The notes under the pieces are model-generated. The model saw only the letters and a program-made list of their open reading frames with translations, was not told the origin of the DNA and ran no database searches. A program made the translations under genes and the position numbers. A stretch of DNA of 64,000 nt from Candidatus Sphingomonas phytovorans. Lineage in GTDB: Bacteria; Pseudomonadota; Alphaproteobacteria; Sphingomonadales; Sphingomonadaceae. This document shows, piece by piece, positions 2,619 to 19,507 of this stretch; the first letter of the stretch is position 1, and each line of letters starts with the position of its first letter. Where the stretch lies: the NCBI GenBank assembly GCA_029202385.1, contig CP119314.1, positions 1,428,501 through 1,492,500 on the forward strand. The letters are read 5' to 3'.

Positions 2619-5595
<2,977 letters not shown>

Positions 5596-5652
5596 TCAGA
5601 TGATGAAGTCCCGGTGCCGATAGGCGGTACCGGGCCTTCCTTGAGGGGGAAT

Positions 5653-6525
5653 ATGGCGCCGTCTCGTAACCGGCGCCCGGGTTTTTCGCGGCGGGCGCAA
5701 TACAGCCTATTCCTGAGCTACGTGATCGCCGTTGCGGGTTCGCTCGTCGGCGCGGTGCTGCTTGCCCTGGCGACGCTCGACCCACCGGCTTTCGCCGCGT
5801 TGCGGGCGACCGTTGCCGAGGTGACCACTCCGGTCTCGTCAGGCGTCGCCGCGATCGGCCGGGGCATCGCCTCGATCCCTGCCTCGGTTTCCGACTATAT
5901 CGGCGTTCGCAGGCAGAACGAGCAGCTCCGCAAGCAGCTCGCGGACAACCATGCCCTACTGATGCGTGCGCGGACGCTGTCCTACGACAATCGCCGCCTG
6001 AAGGCACTGCTGCAGCTCCGCGAGCGTTCGCCCGGCCCCGTGGTGGCGGCGCGTCTCGTCAGTTCCTCGGCATCGAGCACGCGGCGTTTCGCGGTGCTCA
6101 ACGCTGGTGCCTGGCAGGGTGTGAAACCGGGCCAGCCAGTGCGCGGTCCCGAAGGACTGATCGGCCGGATTCTCGAAACCGGTCCGAATACGGCACGCGT
6201 CCTGCTCCTTTCCGATCCTGAGAGCATCGTTCCGGTACGCCGTACCCGGGACGGCCTGCCCGCCCTCGCCGCAGGGCGTGGCGACGGGTTGCTCGATATC
6301 CGGTCAGCCTCGCTCGCCAATGTGGGTTTCGAGCCCGGCGACATCTTCGTGACCTCGGGCACCGGTGGCATCTATTCGCCCAACATCCCCGTCGCACGCG
6401 TGTTGAAACGCGCCCGCGATACGGCGCTGGCCCGCACCTTCGCGCAGCCCGACACGCTCGATTTCGCGCTGGTCCAGCAGGCTTTCCTGTCGGTCGCACC
6501 GCCGGCGGCCCCGCAAAAGCCATGA
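5653..6525 (+). CDS. mreC: Rod shape-determining protein MreC
   Basis: A periplasmic scaffold of the elongasome that links MreB/MreD to PBP2. There is one N-terminal membrane helix (about residues 15-45), a coiled coil around RRQNEQLRKQLADNHALLMRARTLSYDNRRLKALL, and then the beta-domain with VVAARLVSSSASSTRRFAVL, NAGAWQGVKPGQPV and GLIGRI. The chosen ATG 5653 has an excellent ribosome binding site (GAGGGGGA, short spacer); an in-frame GTG at 5614 lacks one and would only add residues before the normal N-terminus. It has 290 residues. The stop overlaps the mreD start by 4 nt. Confidence 0.96.
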   Translation: MAPSRNRRPGFSRRAQYSLFLSYVIAVAGSLVGAVLLALATLDPPAFAALRATVAEVTTPVSSGVAAIGRGIASIPASVSDYIGVRRQNEQLRKQLADNHALLMRARTLSYDNRRLKALLQLRERSPGPVVAARLVSSSASSTRRFAVLNAGAWQGVKPGQPVRGPEGLIGRILETGPNTARVLLLSDPESIVPVRRTRDGLPALAAGRGDGLLDIRSASLANVGFEPGDIFVTSGTGGIYSPNIPVARVLKRARDTALARTFAQPDTLDFALVQQAFLSVAPPAAPQKP

Positions 6526-7034
6526 GGCAGCCGACCCGCGGGCCTTTCGACGCCGCGCCCCCGCCCGCGGCGGCCCGGCTGTTGCCGCCCGCATCGGTGC
6601 TGCTGGCATCGCTCGCCACGACCTGGCCCTTCGTCGCGACCTTCCCCTTCCTGCCGCCGCTCGGGCTGATGGTGCTGCTCGGCTGGCGACTGACCAGGCC
6701 GGACGTGCTTCGAATCTGGGCGCCGCTGCCGCTTGGCTTCTTCGACGATCTGGTCAGCGGGCAGCCACTCGGCAGCGCGATGCTGCTCTGGACCCTGTGC
6801 TTCTTCATGATCGACCTGATCGACCAAAGGCTGGTGTTCCGGGATTTCTGGCAGGACTGGCTGATCGCATCCGGCGCGATCGGCTTCTGCCTCATCGTGG
6901 GACGTCTCGTCGCAGCCCCTATCGGCGCCCATGTCGATACCGTGTTATTACTCCAGATCGTGATCTCGACGATGCTTTTCCCCCTTGTGGCGCGGTTCTG
7001 CGCCTGGCTTGACCGCAAGCGCGAGGGCGCATGA
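6522..7034 (+). CDS. mreD: Rod shape-determining protein MreD
   Basis: A small integral membrane component of the elongasome. It has 170 residues with five or so hydrophobic segments; the pattern of ATTWPFVATFPFLPPLGLMV and LGFFDDLVSGQPLGSAMLLW is the usual MreD signature (the G-x-x-x-D-x-x-x-G-x-x-x-G motif). ATGA overlaps join it to mreC and mrdA, implying translational coupling within the operon. Sequence conservation in MreD is weak, so position in the operon adds much of the certainty. Confidence 0.93.
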   Translation: MRQPTRGPFDAAPPPAAARLLPPASVLLASLATTWPFVATFPFLPPLGLMVLLGWRLTRPDVLRIWAPLPLGFFDDLVSGQPLGSAMLLWTLCFFMIDLIDQRLVFRDFWQDWLIASGAIGFCLIVGRLVAAPIGAHVDTVLLLQIVISTMLFPLVARFCAWLDRKREGA

Positions 7035-9115
7035 ACCAGCCGACCCGCGTGATTACCGAGGCGACGCAGACTTACAGCTTCTCGCGCCGCGCCCTGGTGT
7101 TGGGCGCCGGGCAGGCAGCGGTCGGCCTGCTGCTCGCCGGCCGAATGACCTGGCTCGCGGTGGCCGAGAACGAGCATTACAGCCTGCTCTCCGAGAGCAA
7201 CCGCGTGAACATGACGCTGGTGCCGCCCCGGCGCGGCTGGATCGTCGATCGCAACGGCGTTCCGATCGCCAACAACCGAACCGACTTCCGTGTCGACATC
7301 ATCCCCGACCGGTTGGAGAACAAGGATCGCACGCTCGGCTTGCTCCGCGATATCCTCAGCCTTCCGCCAGAGGCGATGGATCGGATCACGGCCGACCTGA
7401 AGCGCGCCGCGGGATTCCAGCCGGTGCAGGTCATCGAGAATCTCGATCTGGAGAAGTTCGCCGCGGTTAGCGTCCGCCTGCCCGAACTGCCCGGCGTGGC
7501 GCCCTCGCGCGGTTTCGCCCGCAGCTATCCCTCGGGCGCGGCGGTCGCGCATCTGACCGGTTATGTCGGCGCCGCGTCGGCCGAACAATATCAGAAGACC
7601 AAGGATCCTCTGATGGTCACCCCCGGCTTCAAGCTGGGCAAGGACGGCCTTGAAAAGACGCTCGAGCCGGAGCTGCGCGGTTCGCCCGGCGCGAAGCGCG
7701 TCGAGGTAACCGCCCGCGGCAAGCTGGTCCGCGAGCTCGCGACCCGGCCCGACGTACCCGGCAAGACCGCGCGGCTGACCATCGACGCGGGCCTGCAGGA
7801 ATATGCCGCACGCCGCCTCGGCACCAATTCGGGCTCGGCGGTAGTGATCGACTGCCTGACCGGCGAGATGCTCGCGATGGTCTCGATGCCGGCATACGAC
7901 CCGAACAGCTTCTCCGACGGGATCAGCCATCTCGAATGGAAGATGCTGTCTGACGATGATCACGTCCCGCTGATGAACAAGGTGCTGCAGGGCCTTTATC
8001 CGCCCGGCTCTACCGTGAAGCCGATGAACGCGCTTGCCCTGCTCGAAGCTGGCGTCCACCCGGACCAGTCGGTCAACTGCTCGGGTGCCCTGAAGGTCGG
8101 CAACGGCACCTTCCATTGCTGGAGGCGCGGCGGCCATGGGAGCGTCAACATGCGGCGTGGCGTCGCGCAGAGCTGCGACATCTATTTCTATCAGATGGCG
8201 CGCGACATCGGATATGACCGGATCGCGCCGATCGCCCGCAAGCTCGGCCTCGGCCAGAAATTCGATCTGCCCTTCAGCTCGCAGCGTTACGGCACCGTCC
8301 CCGATTCGGCGTGGAAGCTCCGGCGCTACAAGCAGAACTGGACGGTCGCCGACTCGCTAAACGCGTCGATCGGCCAGGGCTATGTTCTCGCCAATCCCCT
8401 TCAACTCGCGGTCATGGCGTCGCGCATCGCATCCGGACGCGCGCTTCAGCCGAGCATCCTGATGGACAAGGTGCATCCCGCCGCAGCGCTCGATGTCTCG
8501 CCCGAGCATCTTGAGATCGTCCGCGACGCGATGTTCGCGGTGGTGAACGACGGCGGCACCGGCGGCGCTTCACGCCTCCAGATCCCGGGCATGACCATCT
8601 CGGGCAAGACGGGCACCGCGCAGGTACGCCGCATCTCGATGGCTGAACGGCGCAGCGGCGTGCTCAATAACGCCTCCCTGCCCTTCAAGATGCGCGACCA
8701 CGCACTCTTCATCTGCTTCGCGCCATCCGACAAGCCGCGTTATGCCGCAGCCGTGGTGCTCGAACACAACGCCCATCTCATCCGCAATCTCGATACGCCG
8801 ATGATCGGGCGCGACATCCTGACCTATTTGCTCGACCGCGAGCGGGCTGTGGCGTCACTGGCCGAGGTCGAGCCGACCTGGGGTGGCGACATCAAGACCC
8901 GCATGACGGCGCAGGCCACCGCCTATCGCGCCGCCGCCAACGCGCCACCGCCGATGGTCGGTGCGGCGACGGAATTCAACGCCACCGCGGCCACCGACGC
9001 GCCGGCCGTGGAGGCTGCGACCAGCGCCGCCGACGCAAGCGCTGAGGCGCTGGCCAACGCCACACGGGCAGGGGCCGGGGTCGCCGAGACCGGTTCGACG
9101 GAGAGCGACCGATGA
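7031..9115 (+). CDS. mrdA: Penicillin-binding protein 2 (peptidoglycan DD-transpeptidase)
   Basis: The transpeptidase that works with RodA in lateral wall elongation. It has 694 residues with an N-terminal membrane helix (around 20-40), a dimerisation domain starting at VPPRRGWIVDRNGVPIANN, and a transpeptidase domain with all three active-site motifs: YPPGSTVKP (SxxK), DSLNASIGQG (SxN) and SGKTGTAQ (KTG). The C-terminal 60 or so residues are an Ala/Thr-rich low-complexity tail beyond the catalytic domain. It shares 4-nt overlaps with mreD and rodA. Confidence 0.97.
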   Translation: MNQPTRVITEATQTYSFSRRALVLGAGQAAVGLLLAGRMTWLAVAENEHYSLLSESNRVNMTLVPPRRGWIVDRNGVPIANNRTDFRVDIIPDRLENKDRTLGLLRDILSLPPEAMDRITADLKRAAGFQPVQVIENLDLEKFAAVSVRLPELPGVAPSRGFARSYPSGAAVAHLTGYVGAASAEQYQKTKDPLMVTPGFKLGKDGLEKTLEPELRGSPGAKRVEVTARGKLVRELATRPDVPGKTARLTIDAGLQEYAARRLGTNSGSAVVIDCLTGEMLAMVSMPAYDPNSFSDGISHLEWKMLSDDDHVPLMNKVLQGLYPPGSTVKPMNALALLEAGVHPDQSVNCSGALKVGNGTFHCWRRGGHGSVNMRRGVAQSCDIYFYQMARDIGYDRIAPIARKLGLGQKFDLPFSSQRYGTVPDSAWKLRRYKQNWTVADSLNASIGQGYVLANPLQLAVMASRIASGRALQPSILMDKVHPAAALDVSPEHLEIVRDAMFAVVNDGGTGGASRLQIPGMTISGKTGTAQVRRISMAERRSGVLNNASLPFKMRDHALFICFAPSDKPRYAAAVVLEHNAHLIRNLDTPMIGRDILTYLLDRERAVASLAEVEPTWGGDIKTRMTAQATAYRAAANAPPPMVGAATEFNATAATDAPAVEAATSAADASAEALANATRAGAGVAETGSTESDR

Positions 9116-10345: not shown

Positions 10346-10421
<76 letters not shown>

Positions 10422-10666
10422 TCCTTCATATCCGATCGTCGATGCCCCTGCATATGCATCCATTCCAGAGGTGTTTCCGCAGCCTCGAATGGTGGCACCC
10501 CCAGTCGCCGCGTGAATTGAATCCATTCTGATCGCAGTTGGCTGATTCCGCCTTCCGACCCTATCGACCTTGTCCGCGAACCATGGTTTTCTGGCACTTG
10601 CCCCTCGCGCCACGGCCTTCCCGGCCAGTCGCGGGAGGCATCGGGTTGACGGTCACGGGAACTGCT

Positions 10667-11221
10667 ATGTCGGATAGTTGGCTAAGCGAAATTCGAATCT
10701 TTCCCTACGGCAAGATACCGACTGGATGGCATCTCTGCGACGGCACGATCATGCAGGTCACGGCGAATCAGGCATTGTTCGCCCTGCTGGGGAATCGGTA
10801 TGGCGGCGATGGCCGGGTCACCTTCGGGCTGCCCGACATGCGCGGACGCGTGCCGATCCACTTGAATCCCGCTGATCCCACCTGCAATCAGGTCGGCATG
10901 GCAGGTGGGGCCGAAGGCGTGACGCTCACCGTCAATCAGATTCCCGCGCATAGCCATCTGGTCTCCGCCTTCAGCGCCAACGGGACCATTCCTATCCCGG
11001 TGAACGGCTATCCTTCGGCAGTAGCGCCCAACGGGACGGCCGGGACACCGTCGCCCCCGCAGATATATGGCCCAATACCCACCGGCACGGGCACGACCAC
11101 GCTATTCAACACCGGGTCAGTCCTTGCCGAAGGCGGTGGACAGGCACATGAGAATCGCCAGCCGACCATGGCGATGAACTGGTGCATCTGCGTTTCGGGT
11201 TTCTTCCCATCCAGAAACTGA
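10667..11221 (+). CDS. Phage tail-collar domain protein (MdpB-like), copy 1
   Basis: First of three tandem genes for tail-collar (PF07484-type) proteins, named after microcystin-dependent protein MdpB. It has 184 residues. The N-terminal domain shows SEIRIFPYGKIPTGWHLCDG, NQALFALLGNRYGGDGRVTF and GLPDMRGRVP, the full collar signature. The middle is Gly/Thr/Pro-rich and variable, and the end (GGQAHENRQPTMAMNWCICV) is the conserved C-terminal motif. The start is ATG 10667, with GGGA 7-8 nt upstream; an in-frame upstream extension to 10538 is outside the domain. The cellular role of these chromosomal, prophage-free proteins is unknown; surface or secreted fibre proteins are a common suggestion. 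Confidence 0.88.
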   Translation: MSDSWLSEIRIFPYGKIPTGWHLCDGTIMQVTANQALFALLGNRYGGDGRVTFGLPDMRGRVPIHLNPADPTCNQVGMAGGAEGVTLTVNQIPAHSHLVSAFSANGTIPIPVNGYPSAVAPNGTAGTPSPPQIYGPIPTGTGTTTLFNTGSVLAEGGGQAHENRQPTMAMNWCICVSGFFPSRN

Positions 11222-11243
11222 GCGGACAGCAAGGAACGCAATC

Positions 11244-11768
11244 ATGGATCCCTATCTCGGCGAAATTCGCCTGTTTGCCAGCATTTACGCGCCACGTGGG
11301 TGGGCCCTGTGCGCAGGCCAACCACTGCCGATAACTGGTAACGAGGCTCTCTTCACACTAGTTGGCACGACCTATGGCGGTGACGGGAGGACTACGTTCA
11401 ACCTTCCGGACCTCCGCGGGCTACTGGTCTGCGGGACGGGGCAGCCCCCCGGTTCACCCAACACATACACGTTGGGACAGTCCTTCGGCGTTGCGCAGGT
11501 CACGGTAACCGAGGCGCAGATGCCGCCACATACCCATTCGATCACGGCATCCACCCAGCCCGCGAACGCTCTCGTCCCGACAGGCAATGTCTTCGCGGCG
11601 CCAAGCAGCGTGCCGGAATACGTCAATTCCGGCGCGACCGGGTTCGTCGCCCGCAACTTGGCGGCGACCGCGCTTTCCAGCGAAGGGGGGAGCATGCCGC
11701 ACGCCAACCTGATGCCGACAATGGCGGTGAACTACATCATCTGTATCCAGGGCATCTTTCCCGCCTGA
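11244..11768 (+). CDS. Phage tail-collar domain protein (MdpB-like), copy 2
   Basis: Second tandem tail-collar protein, 174 residues, 22 bp after copy 1. It begins MDPYLGEIRLFASIYAPRGW and continues ALCAGQPLPI, NEALFTLVGTTYGGDGRTTF and NLPDLRG, so the collar motif is fully conserved. A variable Thr/Ala-rich middle is followed by GGSMPHANLMPTMAVNYIIC, the conserved C-terminal element (H-x-N-x-x-P). It is diverged from copy 1, showing an old duplication and not a recent one. Confidence 0.88.
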   Translation: MDPYLGEIRLFASIYAPRGWALCAGQPLPITGNEALFTLVGTTYGGDGRTTFNLPDLRGLLVCGTGQPPGSPNTYTLGQSFGVAQVTVTEAQMPPHTHSITASTQPANALVPTGNVFAAPSSVPEYVNSGATGFVARNLAATALSSEGGSMPHANLMPTMAVNYIICIQGIFPA

Positions 11769-11782
11769 AGGGGACCAATAAA

Positions 11783-12367
11783 ATGAGCGATCCATTTATC
11801 GGCGAAGTTCGCGGCTGGGCGTGCACCTACGCTCCCCGAGGTTGGGCGCTGTGCAACGGCCAGCAGATGCCGATCGCCCAGGCACAGGCCCTTTTCGCCA
11901 TCACCTCCAATCTCTACGGCCCTTACACGCAGCAGGTGTTCACGTTGCCCGATTTGCGAGGGCTTTCACCGATGGACGCGGGCAATCCCGCCCCAGCCTG
12001 GGTTGCGACGGGCTTGCCCTCCACCGTCGCAGTCGCCCAAAAACTTGGGACGAGCTCGGTCACACTGAACTACAGCCAGATGGCCAATCATACGCACCAG
12101 GCGGTCGCCGCGACGGCCCCCCCGGCTTCCATGACCGTGGCGCCAAGCTCGAACAGCTTTGTCTCACGACCGCTGATACCCCCGTCTACGAGCTTTCCTA
12201 CGGGCGTTTCCTATAGCGCATGGACCAATAGCGGTTCACCCAACGTCGCGATGGCGCCTCAGTCAATCAGCGCGGTCGGTGGCGGTCAGAGCCACGAGAA
12301 CCGACAACCCTTCATGACCTTCAATTTCTGCATCGCGCTTGAGGGCGTCTACCCGTCACGCAACTGA
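11783..12367 (+). CDS. Phage tail-collar domain protein (MdpB-like), copy 3
   Basis: Third tandem copy, 194 residues, 14 bp after copy 2. GEVRGWACTYAPRGWALCNG and QMPIAQAQALFAITSNLYGP identify the collar domain, but the usual YGGDG turn is replaced by YGPYTQQVF before TLPDLRG, a copy-specific change. The C-terminus GGGQSHENRQPFMTFNFCIA keeps the H-E-N-R-Q-P motif. The region after it (12368-12577) has no supported gene; a 37-codon frame from 12468 overlaps the next start but shows no ribosome binding site. Confidence 0.87.
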   Translation: MSDPFIGEVRGWACTYAPRGWALCNGQQMPIAQAQALFAITSNLYGPYTQQVFTLPDLRGLSPMDAGNPAPAWVATGLPSTVAVAQKLGTSSVTLNYSQMANHTHQAVAATAPPASMTVAPSSNSFVSRPLIPPSTSFPTGVSYSAWTNSGSPNVAMAPQSISAVGGGQSHENRQPFMTFNFCIALEGVYPSRN

Positions 12368-12577: not shown

Positions 12578-13762
12578 GTGAGACCATTCCGTCGCGTCGC
12601 CACCGCACTGAGCGCCTTTAGCCAATATGGCTTCCCGTTTCTGCCGGGCCCCGCCCCTACGCCTACGGCACGGCTCAGACGGCTCACCGGACCGAGCTAC
12701 CTGCCGAAACGGCGCCGGTTCCTTCGTCCGCTGGTGTTCGTCACGATGATCCTGGCGTGGCCCGTGGGCGCGCTGGCGACGGCAATCAGGGTCCAGCGGC
12801 GGGACACGCCACCCGGACAGCTGCGTCGCATCGTCGACGCATGGTGGCTGGCGGTGACGCGCAACGTACCGCCGTTCGAATATCGCGCCTACTGTCTCGA
12901 CCAGCCGGGGTCACGCGCTGACCTGCTCCAGTTCGTCTTCTGGACTGACCTACGCGCATTCGCCGAGCTGAACGCGCGGCGCGGGGCGGTGGAACAGGCA
13001 GTCAAGGACAAGGCTCGTTTCGCCAGCATCTGCGAGACCCACGGACTGGCCTCCGTGCCCACGCTGGCGGTATTCCGGGACGGCATCCAGGTGACACCAA
13101 CGGCACCGTTCGTTCCCGAAGCACCGGAACTGTGGGTGAAGAGCCTCGCTGGTCATGGCGGCCAAGGCGCCGCGCTGTGGCGGCGTGCCGATGGCTCCTA
13201 TCGCAACGGGGAGGACGCGGCCATTGCCGCCGACAAATTCGCCCAACATGTCAGCGGAGCCGACTGCATCGTCCAGCCAAGGGTCCTGAACCATCCAGCG
13301 ATCGCCGATATGACCAATGGCGCCCTTGCCAGTCTGCGGATCATCACTGGCGTGGATCGCGAGCGTCGTGCGACCGTTGTAGGTGCGATGCTCTATCTGC
13401 CCAGCGGCGATCGGATCACCTCGGTCGCTGGCATCGGCTGCGCCATCGAAATGGACCAAGGTGCGCTGACGAGGGCGCTCGACTTTCGCAACGGTGCCCC
13501 GGACATCACGCGACACCCCGATACGAACGCGCAGATCACGGGAAGGACGCTACCCTTCTGGCCCGAAAGCCTGGCGCTCGCCATCCGGGCGCACGAAACC
13601 GGGTTCGGCCGGTTCGCCTTTCTCGGCTGGGATATCACCCTTACCGCGGAGGGGCCCCTGCTACTCGAAGCCAATTCCGGCTGGCTTGCCCTGCATCTTC
13701 AGCTACTGAACGGCCCCCTCGGCCGGACCGAATTCTCGCGCATCCTAAACGAGCATCTGTGA
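12578..13762 (+). CDS. Sugar-transfer-associated ATP-grasp domain protein
   Basis: An ATP-dependent carboxylate ligase-fold protein of the ATPgrasp_ST type, 394 residues from GTG 12578. Residues 45-70 (FVTMILAWPVGALATAIRV) are hydrophobic and could contact the membrane. The grasp-fold core includes ELWVKSLAGHGGQGAALW (glycine-rich ATP loop), NGALASLRIITGVD (a typical family stretch) and the Mg-binding ending PLLLEANSGW. The true start is uncertain: the GTG overlaps the stop of a short frame, no strong ribosome binding site is seen, and ATG 12746 is an alternative. It faces the minus-strand RiPP operon (32 bp between stops). Its substrate is unknown; a ligation or capping step in the adjacent RiPP pathway is only inferred from position. 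Confidence 0.75.
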   Translation: MRPFRRVATALSAFSQYGFPFLPGPAPTPTARLRRLTGPSYLPKRRRFLRPLVFVTMILAWPVGALATAIRVQRRDTPPGQLRRIVDAWWLAVTRNVPPFEYRAYCLDQPGSRADLLQFVFWTDLRAFAELNARRGAVEQAVKDKARFASICETHGLASVPTLAVFRDGIQVTPTAPFVPEAPELWVKSLAGHGGQGAALWRRADGSYRNGEDAAIAADKFAQHVSGADCIVQPRVLNHPAIADMTNGALASLRIITGVDRERRATVVGAMLYLPSGDRITSVAGIGCAIEMDQGALTRALDFRNGAPDITRHPDTNAQITGRTLPFWPESLALAIRAHETGFGRFAFLGWDITLTAEGPLLLEANSGWLALHLQLLNGPLGRTEFSRILNEHL

Positions 13763-13793
13763 ACAGGTCGCCCCGCGGCTTTGAGGGCCCGCT

Positions 13794-14087
13794 TCAGGCA
13801 ATGCCGACAAGATTCTCCCCGACAAGGTGTTCGATTACCGACCGGACCTCGGCACGACAGGTCTCCGGGTCGACATCATATTCCCCGGTCAGGCACTCGA
13901 TGAGGTCGGCCAGGGTCCGGGGTGTTTCGAGAAGCTCCCAGATTCGCCGCGTAACCGGCGACAACTCGAAATAGCTTCCCTGTTCCACGCTGAGCATCAG
14001 CAGCTTTTCACCCAGCGGGGCGCCAAGCGTGCCCGGACCGCGCCGCAGAACCATGGCGTCGTCGATCGGAACTGACGAAATCATCAC
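13794..14087 (-). CDS. PqqD-family protein (RRE; lasso B1-like)
   Basis: PqqD-like RiPP recognition element domains bind precursor leader peptides and present them to modifying enzymes. The protein has 96-97 residues, typical for a free-standing RRE. GEKLLMLSVEQGSYFELSPV, TRRIWELLETPRTLADLIEC and LTGEYDVDPETCRAEVRSVI match the PqqD winged-helix pattern (YyxLnxvaaxIWxllxxprTxxeLxxxLxxxYdvd). GTG 14087 or ATG 14084 can serve as start. It is the last gene of the minus-strand operon precursor - kinase - sulfotransferase - PqqD, 37 bp after the sulfotransferase. In lasso pathways this would be protein B1, here without a recognisable B2 protease partner. Confidence 0.88.
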   Translation of the reverse strand: MMISSVPIDDAMVLRRGPGTLGAPLGEKLLMLSVEQGSYFELSPVTRRIWELLETPRTLADLIECLTGEYDVDPETCRAEVRSVIEHLVGENLVGIA

Positions 14088-14124
14088 ATGCTTTCCCGAA
14101 ATATGAAAATTGAAGCCGGCATCC

Positions 14125-15012
14125 CTATGGCACCGTCATGGCCGCTGCCGCGCGATCGCGCGGATAGCCCAACCTGTCCATCATGGGACCATGCGCGCGC
14201 TCGAGCGAGGCCACAAGGTCGCGATCGAGCAGCGCCCGGCCTTCCCCGGGCTCTGCCCGGCGAAAGAAGGGGATATCGGGTTTGAAGCGTTCCGAAAATC
14301 CATGTTCCAGCTCTTCCCGCTGGAGCCGCGCAAAATCCGTAAAGGCAATGGTGCGATCGACATCATCGGGCGCGACCCGAATTTTCAGGAACTCAAGCGC
14401 GCGCGTCAGCCATTCTGCCGGTGACACCAGCAAATCCTCATAGCGGATGAGCAGGGTGGGCACAGCATCCTGGTCGAGCCAGCTTGCAACATGCGAGCTC
14501 CAGTCCTGAGTCTTCTGGAAGATCTGCTTCGAGAAATGTTTCGGGATGCCCTGAAGGTCACCCTCCGGATCGTTCATGAAGGATACCGTCCTATCCAAGG
14601 ACCAGTTCCAGAAGGTGGCGAGGGACAAGGCAATGTCGCGGGGATCCCGCACTAGGTAGAGCGCCACCTGGCCTGGGCTGGCTCCGTGAATCGGAATGCC
14701 CTCGCGATTGAAGCGATAGGCATCGTGGCTCTTGAAAAAACATCGGTCAGCCTCGGCGCGGGCTTCCGCGTCGCACAGCCAGGGCCGCAGCAGGTCCTGC
14801 TCCTCCGCGGTCAGCAGCGAGGTTTCGATAAACGATGCCTCGTCGACGACGCTGCGCGGCAAGGGCCCCGTGCCCACGGTGATCTGCTGATCCGGAGTCC
14901 ACCGCGCCGCTTCGGGTTTCAGGAGATGCATCATCATGAGACGCATCCAGGTGTTGCCCGACTTCATGTAGGACGCGATCCACACGGGACCATCTGGCCC
15001 GCCGGAGGACAT
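14125..15012 (-). CDS. PAPS-dependent sulfotransferase (sulfotransferase domain)
   Basis: Transfers sulfate from PAPS to a hydroxyl or amine acceptor. It has 295 residues. The 5'-phosphosulfate-binding loop is seen in WIASYMKSGNTWMRLMMMHL near the N-terminus, and the 3'-phosphate site in LYLVRDPRDIALSLATFWNW; FFKSHDAYRF supplies the usual KTH-like segment. Start ATG 15012 overlaps the kinase stop as TGATG, so translation is coupled. An upstream ATG at 15030 in the same frame would overlap the kinase by more. Within this RiPP operon the likely acceptor is a Ser/Thr/Tyr of the precursor or its phosphorylated product; lasso clusters with sulfotransferases are known, but the activity here is inferred. 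Confidence 0.88.
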   Translation of the reverse strand: MSSGGPDGPVWIASYMKSGNTWMRLMMMHLLKPEAARWTPDQQITVGTGPLPRSVVDEASFIETSLLTAEEQDLLRPWLCDAEARAEADRCFFKSHDAYRFNREGIPIHGASPGQVALYLVRDPRDIALSLATFWNWSLDRTVSFMNDPEGDLQGIPKHFSKQIFQKTQDWSSHVASWLDQDAVPTLLIRYEDLLVSPAEWLTRALEFLKIRVAPDDVDRTIAFTDFARLQREELEHGFSERFKPDIPFFRRAEPGEGRALLDRDLVASLERAHGPMMDRLGYPRDRAAAAMTVP

Positions 15013-15953
15013 CACACCAGCGATTCCCAATGCGCCTTCAGGCAGGCGACGCTGCGCGGATTATCAGCAACGGCCACTGAACGCCGAAAGACATAGACGG
15101 GCACGCGATCGACAAGCCGCGCCATCAGCGCGAAGCGTTGAGAGACATCGTTGATTTGGTTTGCGAGAAGACGGCGATAACGCTGGTGATCAAGCACAAC
15201 TGCGGCCTTCCCGGCGGGCAGCAGTTCGACGGTCGGATCGGCACCATCCGGCAGGGCTTCGAGAATATAGATAGCGCGGAGCGGCAGCACGGTTTCAGCA
15301 CGCTGCGCCGGAAGCTCGACATGGAATTTGTGGATCTCGCTGCGCACTGCCTTGCGGCGGTGGTCGGCCACCTCCATCCAATCGATCACATCTTCCCACA
15401 AGCGGAACCTGCGCCCATCCGCGTGAAGAACGGGGATGTCACCGCCAAGATCCAGAGCGGAAACGTCGTCGCTCACGATTTCGCAGCCGCCGTGCAGACA
15501 GAGGAGCGCCGCGAGCGTGGACTTGCCTGCACCCGAGGCGCCGCTGAACGCGAACACATTGCCGTTAAACGCCACTGCCGACGCGTGCAGGACCAGCCCG
15601 CCCCGCTGATAGAGCGCGATCGCGATCGCCGTTCCGATGATGAAGATCGCCGCATCATCCAGTGCGACGCCAATCAGAGGCTCGACGAGGATATCGGTGC
15701 CGGACGTCACCAGGAAACGGACGACTCCGGGCACTTCGACCAGGAACGAGGGAGGGGCGAACTGCCAGTTCGGCCCGATCAGGGCCGCGCCGTCCAGAAC
15801 AGCAGGAACGCTGCCAAGCCGGATATATATATCGGCGTGCTCGCTGCCGCAGTCCTCAATACTGCCGTACAACGGGATATCCGACTGCACGCGCAAACCG
15901 GATATCCGATAATATCGGGATTCACCGACTGCTACCGGCGCGGGCATGCGCAT
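15012..15953 (-). CDS. HPr kinase-like protein (RiPP-tailoring kinase)
   Basis: A P-loop kinase related to HPr Ser kinase. It has 313 residues. The C-terminal kinase half begins GGLVLHASAVAFNGNVFAFS and contains Walker A GASGAGKST (about 138-146) followed by LAALLCLHGGCEIVSDDVSAL, the HprK pattern with acidic catalytic residues. It is quite unlike the short PTS HprK at 49981. In paeninodin-type lasso clusters such a kinase phosphorylates the C-terminal Ser hydroxyl of the precursor; the precursor found 35 bp upstream here ends in Ser. ATG 15953 or ATG 15947 can serve as start. Its stop is coupled to the sulfotransferase start. Confidence 0.87.
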   Translation of the reverse strand: MRMPAPVAVGESRYYRISGLRVQSDIPLYGSIEDCGSEHADIYIRLGSVPAVLDGAALIGPNWQFAPPSFLVEVPGVVRFLVTSGTDILVEPLIGVALDDAAIFIIGTAIAIALYQRGGLVLHASAVAFNGNVFAFSGASGAGKSTLAALLCLHGGCEIVSDDVSALDLGGDIPVLHADGRRFRLWEDVIDWMEVADHRRKAVRSEIHKFHVELPAQRAETVLPLRAIYILEALPDGADPTVELLPAGKAAVVLDHQRYRRLLANQINDVSQRFALMARLVDRVPVYVFRRSVAVADNPRSVACLKAHWESLV

Positions 15954-15988
15954 CCAGCCGGCGACCGAATGTCAGATCGAGCGAAGCG

Positions 15989-16147
15989 TCAGGACGCCGG
16001 GCCGGTCGTGGACGTGAATTCGGTCACCGTCCTGTATTTGCCCTGGGTCTCGCGATTCAGGTCATAGCGCTCGAAGGTGGGCGTTTCCCAAGCCTTGCGA
16101 TCGCTGGAAAGTGCGTTCCGCTTGGCCGGCTGGGTCTCGTGATCCAT
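15989..16147 (-). CDS. Putative lasso peptide precursor (52 aa)
   Basis: An unannotated short gene, first in the minus-strand RiPP operon. ATG 16145-16147 is preceded by GAGGGA with a 9-nt spacer; the stop is TGA 15989-15991. The leader starts MDHETQPAKR and carries W20-E-T-P23-T-F25-E-R-Y28-D-L30, equivalent to the Y/W-x-x-P-x-L/F motif bound by lasso B1 proteins, and Thr34 is the penultimate (-2) leader residue, as in most lasso precursors. The predicted core is GKYRTVTEFTSTTGPAS (codons 15992-16042). Gly1 and Glu8 are spaced for an 8-residue macrolactam ring, Phe9 would follow the ring, and the C-terminal Ser17 suits the downstream kinase. Identification rests on motif and context; the cleavage site is predicted. 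Confidence 0.82.
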   Translation of the reverse strand: MDHETQPAKRNALSSDRKAWETPTFERYDLNRETQGKYRTVTEFTSTTGPAS

Positions 16148-16261
16148 CCCAATATTCCCTCAGTTACCTCGAAGCTGCGACAGATGCCATCGACGGTGAC
16201 GGGCCCCGCGTCAAGACGATATGGTGCAGTTGCGAACAAAGCTGCCATGCTACAGGGCTAA

Positions 16262-16303
16262 ATTATAACAACATGTTGCTCGATTGTGACTCGTGCACAA
16301 TCG
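16262..16303 (-). promoter_or_regulatory. Divergent RiPP promoter with two palindromes
   Basis: On the minus strand a perfect -10 hexamer TATAAT (16262-16267) lies about 115 nt before the precursor ATG. Immediately upstream is the perfect 10-bp palindrome CAACATGTTG (16269-16278), and then the inverted repeat CGATTGTG-N7-CACAATCG (16281-16303, 8-bp perfect arms). Both sit where a repressor or activator would overlap the -35 region. The region 16148-16544 otherwise holds no gene I can support. No regulator gene lies in the cluster. Confidence 0.55.
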
Positions 16304-16544
16304 GAGCGCGCTAGGCCAAACTGGATTGCCCGGCGTTTCCCGGCCGCTGTGTTTTGCGGGCATCTTGCTGTTCCAGCCAGCTGGAAAACGCTCTACGGCA
16401 AACCATGCCCGCTTTCGAGATCCTTATCCTTCGCCGTAGCGCCGGTTCGCATTTCCCCGGCGGGCTTGCGGACCTACACCGCGCACTACACCTGGAATTT
16501 CCGACGGAATCAGGGCTTCGCATCGCACCGTGGCCGGGAACGCA

Positions 16545-18425
16545 ATGCGCCTGATCTGCGGCATATGGCATCTCGACGGCAAGCGAGCCGACCCCGCCAT
16601 GCTCGACGCGATGGCGGCGGGAATGATCGCCGCGGAGCTCGCCCCCGAGATACGGCGCTCCGTCGAAGGCAATGTCGGCTTTGTCGTGGTCGATTTTGCC
16701 GCGCCCGCTTCCGGCACCTCTGCGCCCGTATCGAAAAGTGGCACCATGCTGGCGGCCGATCGCCGGCTCGACGCCCCCAGGCAGCTTGCGGCATTGCTGG
16801 ATTGTCCGGGCGCGGACCAGGATATCCTCATTGAGAGGGCGATCGAGCGCTGGGGAAGCGACGCACCGGGCCATCTGTCCGGGGACTTTTCCTTCGCCCA
16901 TTGGAACGCCGAGGCGGGCCGTCTGCTGTGCGCGCGCGACATATTCGGGGTGAGACCCTTTTACTATGCGTGGCATCCGGGAAAGTGCGTTGCCTTCGCA
17001 TCCTTTCCGTCCGGTCTCCATGGCGGCGGGCTGGTGCGGCGAACATTCAACCGCATGGCGCTGGCCCGTCACCTCGTCCAGCAGCAAAGACCCGATGAAG
17101 CGTTGTTCACTGGCATGGCGCGGCTTCCCGCCGCCCATCTTCTCGAGGTTTCGGCGAACGGCCTGGCAGTGCGACGCTACTGGGCGCCGGATGCGCGCAT
17201 TGCGGGTCGCCGGCATGTGATGCCCGACGAGGCCGCCATCGGCCTGCGCGCCCGGCTCGATGCCGCTGTCCGCAGCCGCCTGCCCCAATCGGGCGACGTT
17301 GCGGCGCATTTGAGCGGCGGGCTCGATTCGTCCGCCATTGCCACCCTGGCCGCACGCCAGCTTCACGAAAGCGGCCGACGCCTGCATGCTTGGTCATTCC
17401 TCGACGTCCAGCGCAATGACGTCGTGCTGGACGATGAAACCGCGTTCGTTCAGGCCGTGCTGGAACAGGAACCTGCAATCGCCTGGACCGCGGTGCGTCC
17501 ACCGCGCGATGATATCGACCCCGGGCCGTTCCATTCCGACCTTCCGCTACCGGTCGGGCCGGAGGACCCCGATTGCGCGGTCTGCGCCGGCGCGGCTGCG
17601 GCTGGAGCGCATATCGTCCTGTCTGGCTGGGGCGGAGACGAAGCCGCCACCTTCAACGGACGCGGTGCGCTAGCCGAGCTTTTCCTCAAGGGGCGATGGC
17701 GTACGCTGGCCCGCGAATGCTCAGCGCTCAGGCGCGAACGCGGCGTGACGATCGCCGACATCCTGCGCGGAGAAGTGATCGGCTATCTGCTGCCCACCTT
17801 CTGGCACGCGAGGCGATCCCGCAAACGCGGCGACGGGCTCAGGCATCGCCTCCTGCAGTGTTTACCGAACGACATTGCGACGACACTTGGGAAAGATCGG
17901 GATGGAGCGCTGTCCATGGGGCCGGACGCCGGGGCAAACCGTGCTCGGCTGATCGGTTCGTCCCACATCGCTCAGCGATGCGAGAATTGGGCGGCGCTGG
18001 GTGCTCAGCATGGCGTCGCCTTCGCCTTCCCAATGCTCGACCGCCGGGTCGTGGAGTATGCCCTGTCGTTGCCCAGCGACCTGTTCCTCCGTGACGGATG
18101 GAAAAGGCGGGTGTTCCGGGATGCGATGCAAGGCGTGCTGCCAGATATGATCCGCAAGCGCCACGCCAAGGCCACCCCCTTCCCGGCCCTTCCATTGATC
18201 ATGGCCGAGCAGAAGGAAAAGCTGGCGGCGCGGATCGAGGACGTGGCGGTGAACGACACCGTACGATCCCTTCTGGATATCAACACGCTCCGCGCGCAAG
18301 TCGCCGCCCTGCCCGATCCGGCGAAGATCAAGGCCAGGCTCAGCGGCAATCCGGCTCCCTCGGCTGATGCTGCCGCGCTACGCCAGGTCCTGCGCCTCGC
18401 CGCCTATATAGCCCAGGACCGTTGA
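16545..18425 (+). CDS. Asparagine-synthetase-like protein (lasso cyclase C candidate)
   Basis: A homologue of asparagine synthetase B and beta-lactam synthetase; in lasso pathways such a protein adenylates the ring Asp/Glu side chain and closes the macrolactam. It has 626 residues from ATG 16545 (GGGAA ribosome binding site). The N-terminal Ntn-like domain begins MRLICGIWHLDG, so the Cys is at position 5 and not at position 2, meaning no working glutaminase nucleophile, as expected of a cyclase. The synthetase domain has the PP-loop HLSGGLDSSAIATLAAR (SGGLDSS 257-263) and SGWGGDEAATFNGRGALAEL. The C-terminus (PSDLFLRDGWKRRVFRDAM, PDMIRKRHAK) matches the family. It is divergent from the precursor operon and convergent with the methyltransferase (8 bp apart). 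Confidence 0.88.
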   Translation: MRLICGIWHLDGKRADPAMLDAMAAGMIAAELAPEIRRSVEGNVGFVVVDFAAPASGTSAPVSKSGTMLAADRRLDAPRQLAALLDCPGADQDILIERAIERWGSDAPGHLSGDFSFAHWNAEAGRLLCARDIFGVRPFYYAWHPGKCVAFASFPSGLHGGGLVRRTFNRMALARHLVQQQRPDEALFTGMARLPAAHLLEVSANGLAVRRYWAPDARIAGRRHVMPDEAAIGLRARLDAAVRSRLPQSGDVAAHLSGGLDSSAIATLAARQLHESGRRLHAWSFLDVQRNDVVLDDETAFVQAVLEQEPAIAWTAVRPPRDDIDPGPFHSDLPLPVGPEDPDCAVCAGAAAAGAHIVLSGWGGDEAATFNGRGALAELFLKGRWRTLARECSALRRERGVTIADILRGEVIGYLLPTFWHARRSRKRGDGLRHRLLQCLPNDIATTLGKDRDGALSMGPDAGANRARLIGSSHIAQRCENWAALGAQHGVAFAFPMLDRRVVEYALSLPSDLFLRDGWKRRVFRDAMQGVLPDMIRKRHAKATPFPALPLIMAEQKEKLAARIEDVAVNDTVRSLLDINTLRAQVAALPDPAKIKARLSGNPAPSADAAALRQVLRLAAYIAQDR

Positions 18426-18433
18426 TCGCGGAT

Positions 18434-19507
18434 TCAGAACTCGGTCCATTCTCCCGGCTCAGCCCAGATGCTGAACGTTTCCCGATCATGGGCTCCGACC
18501 ACGGCGACCGCCTGGCCGGCCACCACATCCATCGTATCGCGAAACGGATAGAATAAGGTCGCCCAGCAGGACGAAGTGCCAGGCCCCGGCCGATTTTCGT
18601 AAACGATCTCGTCGTCCATCTTCAGGCGGATCCATTGCAGCACGCCGTTGATGGGGCGGCCATCGGCAACCACCGTGGCGCGCTGCTCCCGGGGACGGAA
18701 CGGACCACCCGAACGGAAGTCGAATTGCATCAGATCAGCGCTCGAACTCCGAACGTCGAGGCTCGGATCGCCGACAGCATGCGGCCACACCGGGGATTCC
18801 AACAGGTTGAACCCGGAAAGGTCGAATCCGTCGATAATGCCCATGCGCCGCTTTTCCAGAGCGCTGCTCCAGGCGAGCGCCACCCGGACAGTCCCCGCCT
18901 CCGGGATCATCCGTCCATCGGGCTTCAGCCAGCGGGCCGATTCTTCCATGACAGCGAGGCACCCTTCGCCGATCAGGTTGTTGCTGACGATCTCGGATAC
19001 CAGCACATCCACTAGGCCGCCCAGATCCTGCTCCACGTCGAGCTTGGACGAATGCCTGGCGATCAGCCGGACACGGCCTGCAAACCCGTTGGCATCGAGA
19101 ATCCGCGTCGCGGCCCCGGAGACCGCCGCATTCTGCTCACAGGTAACGACGTCCTGCGCTCCGGCACGCGCTGCCATCATCGCGAGCAAGCCGGTACCCG
19201 TGCCAATATCAAGAACGCGGGATTGGGGAGTCACCGCACGGCGCAGGGCCTGGTCATAAGCCCGGTTACGGGCATGATCGCGCACGATCACGAAATGCCA
19301 GTCGGGCACCATTTCCTTGAGCAGCGTTTCTGCCGCGCGGGCAACAGAGGGTGCCGGCGCCATCGCAAGCACCTCGTGGACAAGTGCTGCCGCGCGATCG
19401 GGCCGGGTCCCGGTCATGGCCTTCGCGATGTTGACCAGGGCTTGCGGATCACCTGCTCCCTGTTGGGCAAGTATCTCAAGCGCGTCATGCATATCGGCTC
19501 TCACCAT
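18434..19507 (-). CDS. PRMT-like class I SAM methyltransferase
   Basis: The 357-residue protein has an N-terminal helical region (about 1-80, TPR-like: VNIAKAMTGTRPDRAAALVH), then a Rossmann methyltransferase core with SRVLDIGTGTGLLAMMAARA (motif I) and DVVTCEQNAA (motif II with the acidic ribose-binding residue). LVSEIVSNNLIGEG resembles the double-Glu loop of protein arginine methyltransferases (SE-x-M-G-x-x-L-x-x-E). A beta-rich C-terminal domain follows (GVLQWIRLKMDDEIVYENRP). ATG 19507 or 19492 can be the start. Sited at the border of the lasso-like locus, it may methylate the peptide (the core has one Arg and one Lys) or be unrelated. A PRMT7-like or L11-methyltransferase-like annotation is likely in databases. 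Confidence 0.75.
   Translation of the reverse strand: MVRADMHDALEILAQQGAGDPQALVNIAKAMTGTRPDRAAALVHEVLAMAPAPSVARAAETLLKEMVPDWHFVIVRDHARNRAYDQALRRAVTPQSRVLDIGTGTGLLAMMAARAGAQDVVTCEQNAAVSGAATRILDANGFAGRVRLIARHSSKLDVEQDLGGLVDVLVSEIVSNNLIGEGCLAVMEESARWLKPDGRMIPEAGTVRVALAWSSALEKRRMGIIDGFDLSGFNLLESPVWPHAVGDPSLDVRSSSADLMQFDFRSGGPFRPREQRATVVADGRPINGVLQWIRLKMDDEIVYENRPGPGTSSCWATLFYPFRDTMDVVAGQAVAVVGAHDRETFSIWAEPGEWTEF

Follow-up and report, generated by a model that had tools for sequence, protein, structure and literature searches.

A putative precursor of a kinase-modified lasso-type peptide in Candidatus Sphingomonas phytovorans, in a conserved cluster with a sulfotransferase gene and no local B2 peptidase

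Reviews describe lasso peptide clusters of the paeninodin type (PadeA/K and ThcoK; SyanA/K of Sphingobium yanoikuyae) as encoding an HprK-like kinase with a His-Lys-Asp-Asp set, a PqqD-like B1 protein and an Asn-synthetase-like cyclase, together with a precursor that ends in Ser and carries Thr at position –2. According to the published accounts consulted, PqqD-like B1 proteins bind the leader, Thr(–2) is a known recognition residue for leader processing, and the leader motif extends from –17 to –12. For pseudomycoidin, a review reports that a kinase phosphorylates a Ser and that a nucleotidyltransferase adds a hexose to that phosphate. In the bsf cluster of Bradymonas sediminis, the kinase BsfK is described as phosphorylating Ser3, with B1 aiding both the kinase and the leader peptidase B2. 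Some Firmicutes lasso clusters have been described as beginning with a putative sulfotransferase gene (PMC8498205), while no report of a sulfated lasso peptide was met in a limited literature search.

The window analysed here is the whole stretch of 64,000 nucleotides of Candidatus Sphingomonas phytovorans DNA (contig CP119314.1, positions 1,428,501 to 1,492,500). An initial annotation had placed in it, on a 52-codon minus-strand frame, a lasso-type precursor with a predicted core, next to genes for an HprK-like kinase, a sulfotransferase, a PqqD protein and a divergent Asn-synthetase-like enzyme. All these neighbours were found in their places, and the translation of 15989-16147(-) agrees exactly with the proposed frame (P0001, 52 aa: MDHETQPAKRNALSSDRKAWETPTFERYDLNRETQGKYRTVTEFTSTTGPAS). 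The good ribosome binding site attributed to it corresponds to a GAGGG sequence 9 nt from the ATG. The features of the locus are:

10538-11221, 11244-11768 and 11783-12367, plus strand: three phage Collar-domain genes adjoining the cluster
12578..13762, plus strand: ATP-grasp ligase, 394 aa (PF14397), present in this cyclase clade
13794..14087, minus strand: PqqD-like B1 protein (RRE), 97 aa (PF05402)
14125..15030, minus strand: PAPS-type sulfotransferase, 301 aa (PF00685; KSGNTW and RDPRD motifs)
15012..15953, minus strand: HprK-like kinase K, 313 aa (TIGR04352/04355 far below cut-off; catalytic residues; AF2 model)
15989..16147, minus strand: lasso-type precursor A, P0001, 52 aa (translation, homologs, ortholog in locus L048)
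15992-16042, minus strand: predicted core GKYRTVTEFTSTTGPAS, part of precursor A
16043-16147, minus strand: predicted leader, part of precursor A
16157..16161, minus strand: ribosome-binding-like GAGGG, 9 nt ahead of the ATG (read by eye)
16530..18425, plus strand: lasso-cyclase-like Asn-synthetase homolog C, 631 aa (SGGLDS motif)
18434..19507, minus strand: PRMT7/9-like methyltransferase, 357 aa (conserved in L048)

When P0001 was used as a query against 5.8 billion proteins, all five candidates examined at E ≤ 1 were matched (E values 3.7e-27 to 2.9e-10), and a nine-row alignment used in the same manner gave 12 matches among 19 candidates (E ≤ 10). The best P0001 match, P0122, has no listed outside source and may be the window's own protein; two homologs, P0127 and P0132, are called 'hypothetical protein' in their source. 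An ortholog was located at 7776-7934 of L048, a locus of an uncultured genome, upstream of the orthologous kinase, and its sequence is identical to P0127. The two genes differ at 12, 13 and 21 nucleotides in the first, second and third codon positions, respectively; dN is 0.26, dS 0.94 and dN/dS 0.28 for the whole precursor, and 0.13, 0.74 and 0.17 for the core alone, which is under purifying selection. The annotation had anticipated a homologous leader and core beside orthologous kinase and PqqD genes in relatives, and the genome of L048 is the one other genome in which this arrangement was found. In two further cases a precursor and a kinase homolog share the same longest-contig value (73451 for P0125 and P0004; 195351 for P0130 and P0008), which suggests that the members of each pair lie on one contig. 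Searched alone against 199 genomes of the family (E ≤ 1), the precursor gave a best match outside its own genome of E 0.026. The annotation had also raised the case of a real gene in another frame, and four alternative frames over the region were therefore compared with L048: the same-strand frame reached at best E 0.35, one antisense frame over the precursor region had no match, and two antisense frames matched (E 2.6e-12 and 6.7e-39) in what are read as opposite-strand shadows of the kinase and the precursor. The 52-codon frame is therefore real and very probably a RiPP precursor.

The ten window-type sequences (P0001 and P0122-P0130) have the W-x-x-P-x-F leader motif in common and all keep Thr34 (position –2), Glu43 (Glu8), Gly49, Pro50 and Ser52, even though the N-terminal half of the leader drifts among them. 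Their +1 residue, directly before Lys37, is Gly in eight rows, Ala in P0126 and Ser in P0129. In alignment A4 (15 rows, two of them entered from loci), W20, P23, K37, E43, G49, P50 and S52 are kept, and the C-terminal Ser is present in P0001 and in all 12 database homologs (P0122-P0133). The leader motif, Thr at –2, Gly at +1, Glu at ring position 8 and the terminal Ser thus stand as originally proposed; the count of seven Thr/Ser among the nine residues after the ring does not, as the tail FTSTTGPAS has five of nine and it is the whole core that has seven. Set against the paeninodin type, the precursor has a [Y/W]xxPx[L/F] leader motif with Thr(–2), a small N-terminal core residue with Asp/Glu at position 7-9 and, by sequence, a C-terminal Ser as a candidate kinase target.

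The position of the core boundary deserves some caution. The window motif, W(–16)xxP(–13)xF(–11), is shifted by one residue towards the core relative to the published spacing which, if applied here, would start the core at Lys37 and give Lys1, Glu7 and a seven-residue ring. However, only one of five registers considered for the window, Gly1/Glu8, has Thr/Ser at –2. Of 19 precursor rows, 17 were scored by program and the last two, L061 and L144, were read by hand; all 17 scored rows had at least one register combining Thr/Ser(–2) with an acid at 7-9, but five registers were allowed per row, so this figure is supportive only. In a sister family (P0131-P0133 and the L137 precursor) the same Thr/Ser(–2) rule gives Lys1/Glu7, against the window register. 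The Gly1-Glu8 register is preferred here because Gly, Ala and Ser alternate at +1, and a seven-residue ring is kept as the alternative reading. The sister core family (KLSSTAEFYVP...RTLGPS) has, by this rule, Lys at +1 and possibly a seven-residue ring; one of its members, P0132, is named Sphingomonas alpina. For the window core minus water, the calculated monoisotopic mass is 1783.874 Da.

The kinase gene starts 35 bases past the precursor; the sulfotransferase frame overlaps that of the kinase and is followed by PqqD. The kinase contains H123, K144, D162 and D163, which are invariant in the 17 rows of alignment A2 (this includes the window protein and numbers the residues one lower), and thus has the His-Lys-Asp-Asp set as worded in the review, the match being to that wording rather than to the PadeK sequence. 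Its AF2 model has a mean pLDDT of 77.9, and a sequence search of solved structures returned only four chains, none of them better than E 0.59. A search of 20 other genomes of the genus gave no close full-length kinase relative, the best being ∼40% identical. Elsewhere in the same genome, a 297-aa frame gave a weak kinase match (G000:C1:342386-342691; 38%, E 7e-9), with no lasso-cyclase match near it. As to the target, the annotation had pointed to the Thr/Ser residues of the tail. Phosphorylation is kept as a prediction; by analogy with PadeK and SyanK, it would most likely fall on the C-terminal Ser and not on the Thr-rich tail as a whole.

A comparison of frames of at least 90 aa (blastp, >80 bits) showed the window and L048 to share the methyltransferase, cyclase, kinase, sulfotransferase, PqqD and ATP-grasp genes, with synteny ending there on both sides, so that the conserved block covers approximately 12578-19507, bounded by the ATP-grasp and PRMT-like methyltransferase genes. 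Identities to L048 were 69% for the methyltransferase, 63% for the cyclase, 69% for the kinase, 76% for the sulfotransferase, 62% for PqqD and 66% for the ATP-grasp protein. The best NCBIfam match of the cyclase is the lasso cyclase model, at 253.6 bits and under the cut-off of 525; the protein has no Cys at residue 2. In a tree it groups with other kinase-associated cyclases, those of L048, L049 and L052 (SH-aLRT 99), although this was a quick tree with several long branches, in which counts of state changes are approximate, L143 having been labelled as carrying B2 by default when none was seen there. The PqqD protein scores 63.7 bits against PF05402 (cut-off 23.4), as fits a B1/RRE protein, and 64.2 bits against NF033536, under its cut-off of 80. 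Within 7 kb of a kinase, an ATP-grasp match was seen only in the window, L048, L049 and L052 among the 63 loci tabulated, that of L052 with only 24% identity; the ATP-grasp protein matched no solved structure by sequence at E ≤ 0.001. For the methyltransferase, sequence comparison with the PDB gave PRMT7 and PRMT9 (best E 1e-26). Its action on core Arg4 was considered and is unlikely: this residue is Ala in L048, where the enzyme is kept. No transporter or isopeptidase was recognised among the ten cluster and flanking genes scanned.

A tRNA-Lys(ctt) gene (10346-10421) lies directly before the Collar genes and the lasso-type cluster. Its position, together with the lack of a close kinase relative in the 20 genus genomes, makes it possible that tRNA, Collar genes and cluster form an island; no exact repeat of at least 13 bases that could mark integration at the tRNA was present in the window, and the window Collar genes had no match in L048. 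Trios of PF07484 Collar genes stand beside several kinase-type lasso-like clusters (window 10538-12367, L003 5895-7568, L114 2968-4801, L142 14256-15978 and L065 7314-9022), followed in four of these five places by a GNAT gene, the window being the exception. All six Collar matches of the genome sit at two kinase-type lasso-like clusters, and of the 66 kinase rows 8 have a Collar match within 9 kb, L065 among them, which comes from a Verrucomicrobiota MAG.

The most evident departure from described clusters concerns B2. Neither a PF13471 search of the genome nor a B2 profile revealed a B2 gene in the window. The whole genome contains two PF13471 genes (E ≤ 0.001): one at 4991618, in the L003 cluster, and one at 2408386, which adjoins a cyclase matched weakly by the lasso model and is taken for part of a conventional lasso cluster. 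A B2 profile built from relatives, which did not include the L003 and L062 B2 sequences and still recovered that of L003, found none in the window, L013, L014, L016 or L017 (E ≤ 10). These five and L003 are the six kinase and cyclase clusters found in this genome, only one of which has a B2 gene. The annotation had not mentioned the lack of B2, the ATP-grasp and PRMT-like genes or the five further clusters. In the genome of L048, L114 has B2 and L048, L138 and L139 do not, although the contigs of L138 and L139 end within 2.7 kb of the kinase (that of L137 is cut off inside the cyclase). Among 42 rows with kinase and cyclase, B2 was present within 7 kb in 29 and absent in 13, some of these with short flanks; when rows were restricted to those with at least 5 kb on both sides, the figures were 21 and 7 of 28. 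Since B2 is present in L049, a near relative, and in L052, where it stands beside a second, truncated cyclase to which it may belong, the window lineage probably lost its B2. All six genomes searched that hold B2-less clusters (this one, G199, G204, G211, G212 and G213) have PF13471 elsewhere, but so do 63 of 149 family genomes in a control search, so that finding one outside the cluster carries little weight. In the B2 of the L003 cluster, a Cys and an HAWLD motif are retained, which we take to have the roles usual in such an enzyme. As the window-type precursors retain Thr(–2), a B2-type enzyme would seem to cut this leader still; with none in the cluster, the protease probably comes from another place in the genome, the L003-cluster B2 being the candidate to act in trans. 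Unclustered trans-acting proteases have been described for lanthipeptides (PMC8960859). One paper argues, however, that RREs evolved to keep co-resident pathways apart (PMC13381572), which would speak against loose sharing unless every B1 stays with its own leader and the clusters have just the B2 in common.

The second departure is the sulfotransferase. Of 66 kinase rows, 13 have only a sulfotransferase within 7 kb, 40 only an NTP_transf_5 gene, 13 neither and none both (Fisher p 5e-7, on related and hence non-independent rows, the L073 kinase being split over two of them). When just the 54 genome_contigs rows are counted, the numbers are 6, 37 and, for both, 0. The sulfotransferase profile was seeded from the window protein alone, and a nucleotidyltransferase of L142, at ∼8.5 kb from the kinase, falls beyond the 7 kb limit. 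By sequence, the window sulfotransferase matches Teg12/Teg14, StaL and cytosolic sulfotransferases. It keeps the KSGNTW and RDPRD motifs. Because of the mutual exclusion with NTP_transf_5 beside kinases, the sulfotransferase may take the step that follows phosphorylation, acting perhaps on the phosphate, perhaps on a different hydroxyl or group. Tyr3 was considered as a sulfation site and rejected, the residue being Phe in P0125 and P0126.

Weaker relatives of the precursor adjoin three other kinase/PqqD/cyclase clusters of the genome (L003, L013 and L014), so that precursors were found for four of its six kinase and cyclase clusters; motif scans and inspection by eye yielded none for L016 or L017. 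Sister precursors were also found in the genome of L048 (L114, L137, L138 and L139) and elsewhere (L049, L050, L052 with a second copy, L061, L065, L144 and G091), and in the motif scans these precursor-like frames carry a W-x-x-P or Y-x-x-P leader. One scan was restricted to frames whose last residue is S, T or C, for which reason a C-terminal Ser is not an independent observation in L137, L138, L139, L049, the second L052 copy and L144, while the precursors from the unfiltered scans (L003, L013, L014, L114, L050, L052, L061, L065 and G091) were chosen by eye from longer lists. That of L003 had been missed by the strict scan and was spotted by eye, and that of L014 ends in Cys. The weak G091 match (E 0.07) from the search of family genomes fits a real sister precursor, a 70-aa frame in L025 ∼5 kb from a kinase and B2. 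Sister families show unusual residues at +1 (Asn, Lys). Judging by the MCG start and the neighbours of the cyclase-like gene at 1713082 (L015), this was taken for an XrtA/PEP-CTERM-type amidotransferase and set aside.

Several neighbourhoods of these clusters are worth recording. In L017 (6073-12050), kinase, sulfotransferase, PqqD and cyclase genes lie directly downstream of a gene for a 662-aa protein that resembles, by eye, a sensor histidine kinase. A B12-binding radical SAM protein and a DsbB-DsbA-like fusion adjoin the kinase-type clusters of L013 (8934-10850) and L014 (8978-10132). Also in this genome, L141 (G000:C1:485000-500000) contains at 4712-8075 an HprK-like kinase, an NTP_transf_5-like gene and PqqD, with no cyclase or B2 match, a gene set that resembles that of the linear polyphosphorylated peptides (LPPs).

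Taken together, these results make it likely that P0001 gives rise to a kinase-modified lasso-type RiPP through a pathway that includes a B2 acting in trans. In the proposed scheme, PqqD (B1) would bind the leader through W(–16)xxP(–13)xF(–11), and the HprK-like kinase would phosphorylate the still linear precursor on its C-terminal residue, Ser17. Sulfate would then be added by the sulfotransferase, in the slot held by the nucleotidyltransferase in related clusters, and the cut after Gln(–1) would be made by the B2 encoded in the related cluster (genome position 4991618). The Asn-synthetase-like enzyme would join Gly1 to Glu8, giving an eight-residue ring, and the ATP-grasp and methyltransferase would probably add further modifications. 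A bolder extension, in which a single B2 works as a hub for up to six kinase-type clusters and the sulfotransferase replaces the nucleotidyltransferase on the C-terminal phosphoserine to give a sulfated or sulfo-phosphorylated lasso peptide, is put forward tentatively and is in our opinion unlikely to hold in full.

Other explanations start from the same observations. The same lasso-type peptide might be made with no need of B2, a housekeeping protease trimming the leader and the cyclase then forming the ring. The title of Zyubko et al. 2019, according to which pseudomycoidin, a kinase-type lasso peptide, is synthesised without leader and leader peptidase, and the B2-less rows counted above (13 of 42; 7 of the 28 with at least 5 kb on both flanks) both point this way, but all ten window-type precursors keep Thr(–2) despite the drift of the N-terminal leader, and PF13471 occurs elsewhere in all six searched genomes with B2-less clusters, albeit in 63 of 149 family genomes too; we regard this route as improbable, though to be taken seriously. 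A product resembling LPPs, linear or cyclic but unthreaded, phosphorylated and perhaps sulfated, with the Asn-synthetase homolog doing something other than lasso closure, appears distinctly improbable. It would be in line with the use by LPPs of an HprK-like kinase and an RRE without a macrolactam cyclase (PMC13381572), with the divergence of the cyclase from the NCBIfam model and with Asn and Lys at +1 in sister families. It does not sit well with a cyclase that is present and conserved (63% to L048), with the retention of Glu8 and a small +1 residue throughout the ten window-type rows, or with the absence, among the ten genes scanned, of the signal-peptidase-like protease of LPPs.

That the cluster is decaying, with B2 lost and nothing made, could be argued from the missing B2 and from the kinase having no close full-length relative in 20 other genus genomes (best ∼40%); yet all the cluster frames are open, dN/dS of the precursor is 0.28, and L048 shows the same B2-less order, each of its cluster genes being 62-76% identical to the window counterpart, which makes decay very improbable. 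As for a chance open frame, the region is GC-rich (0.65) and has many spurious frames, but other contigs carry same-length homologs, of which one is in the right place and under purifying selection, and this leaves the explanation a practically negligible share. The kinase-modified lasso-type reading is therefore preferred, and the precursor, its Thr(–2) boundary, Gly1/Glu8, C-terminal Ser and kinase-type lasso-like cluster are supported as the annotation had described them.

A search that requires a B2 gene next to the cyclase would presumably overlook clusters of this sort or call them incomplete. Should one B2 indeed serve several clusters, processing of lasso leaders would be an unclustered function acting in trans, as described for lanthipeptide proteases (PMC8960859). 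The either-or occurrence of sulfotransferase and nucleotidyltransferase beside the kinase provides a direct test of the second tailoring step.

Compared with known systems, the window resembles the paeninodin type, as depicted in reviews, in its kinase, B1, Asn-synthetase-like cyclase homolog, Thr(–2) and terminal Ser, and departs from it in the lack of B2 in the cluster, in the added sulfotransferase, ATP-grasp and PRMT-like genes, in Trp replacing Tyr in the leader motif and in gene order. With pseudomycoidin, which we know from a review and a title, it shares a kinase followed by a second tailoring enzyme and a possibly dispensable B2, but has a sulfotransferase where NTP_transf_5 stands. 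Like the bsf cluster, as far as this is described, it would combine a kinase with B1-assisted processing, there of a YxxPxL leader; BsfA, in contrast, has Ile(–2), a C-terminal Asp and a phosphorylated Ser3, the window Thr(–2), a C-terminal Ser and Tyr3. The HprK-like kinase and RRE acting on a small precursor recall LPPs, which are reported to lack a cyclase and to use a signal-peptidase-like protease (PMC13381572), whereas the window has a cyclase-like gene. Since B2, a cluster-defining component, was sought and is missing, the cluster is not classed as a full lasso member, but as one that works like a paeninodin-type lasso system. Kinase-type lasso clusters, and a sulfotransferase gene in some lasso clusters, were known; what is new is the combination of sulfotransferase, ATP-grasp and PRMT-like genes without a local B2.
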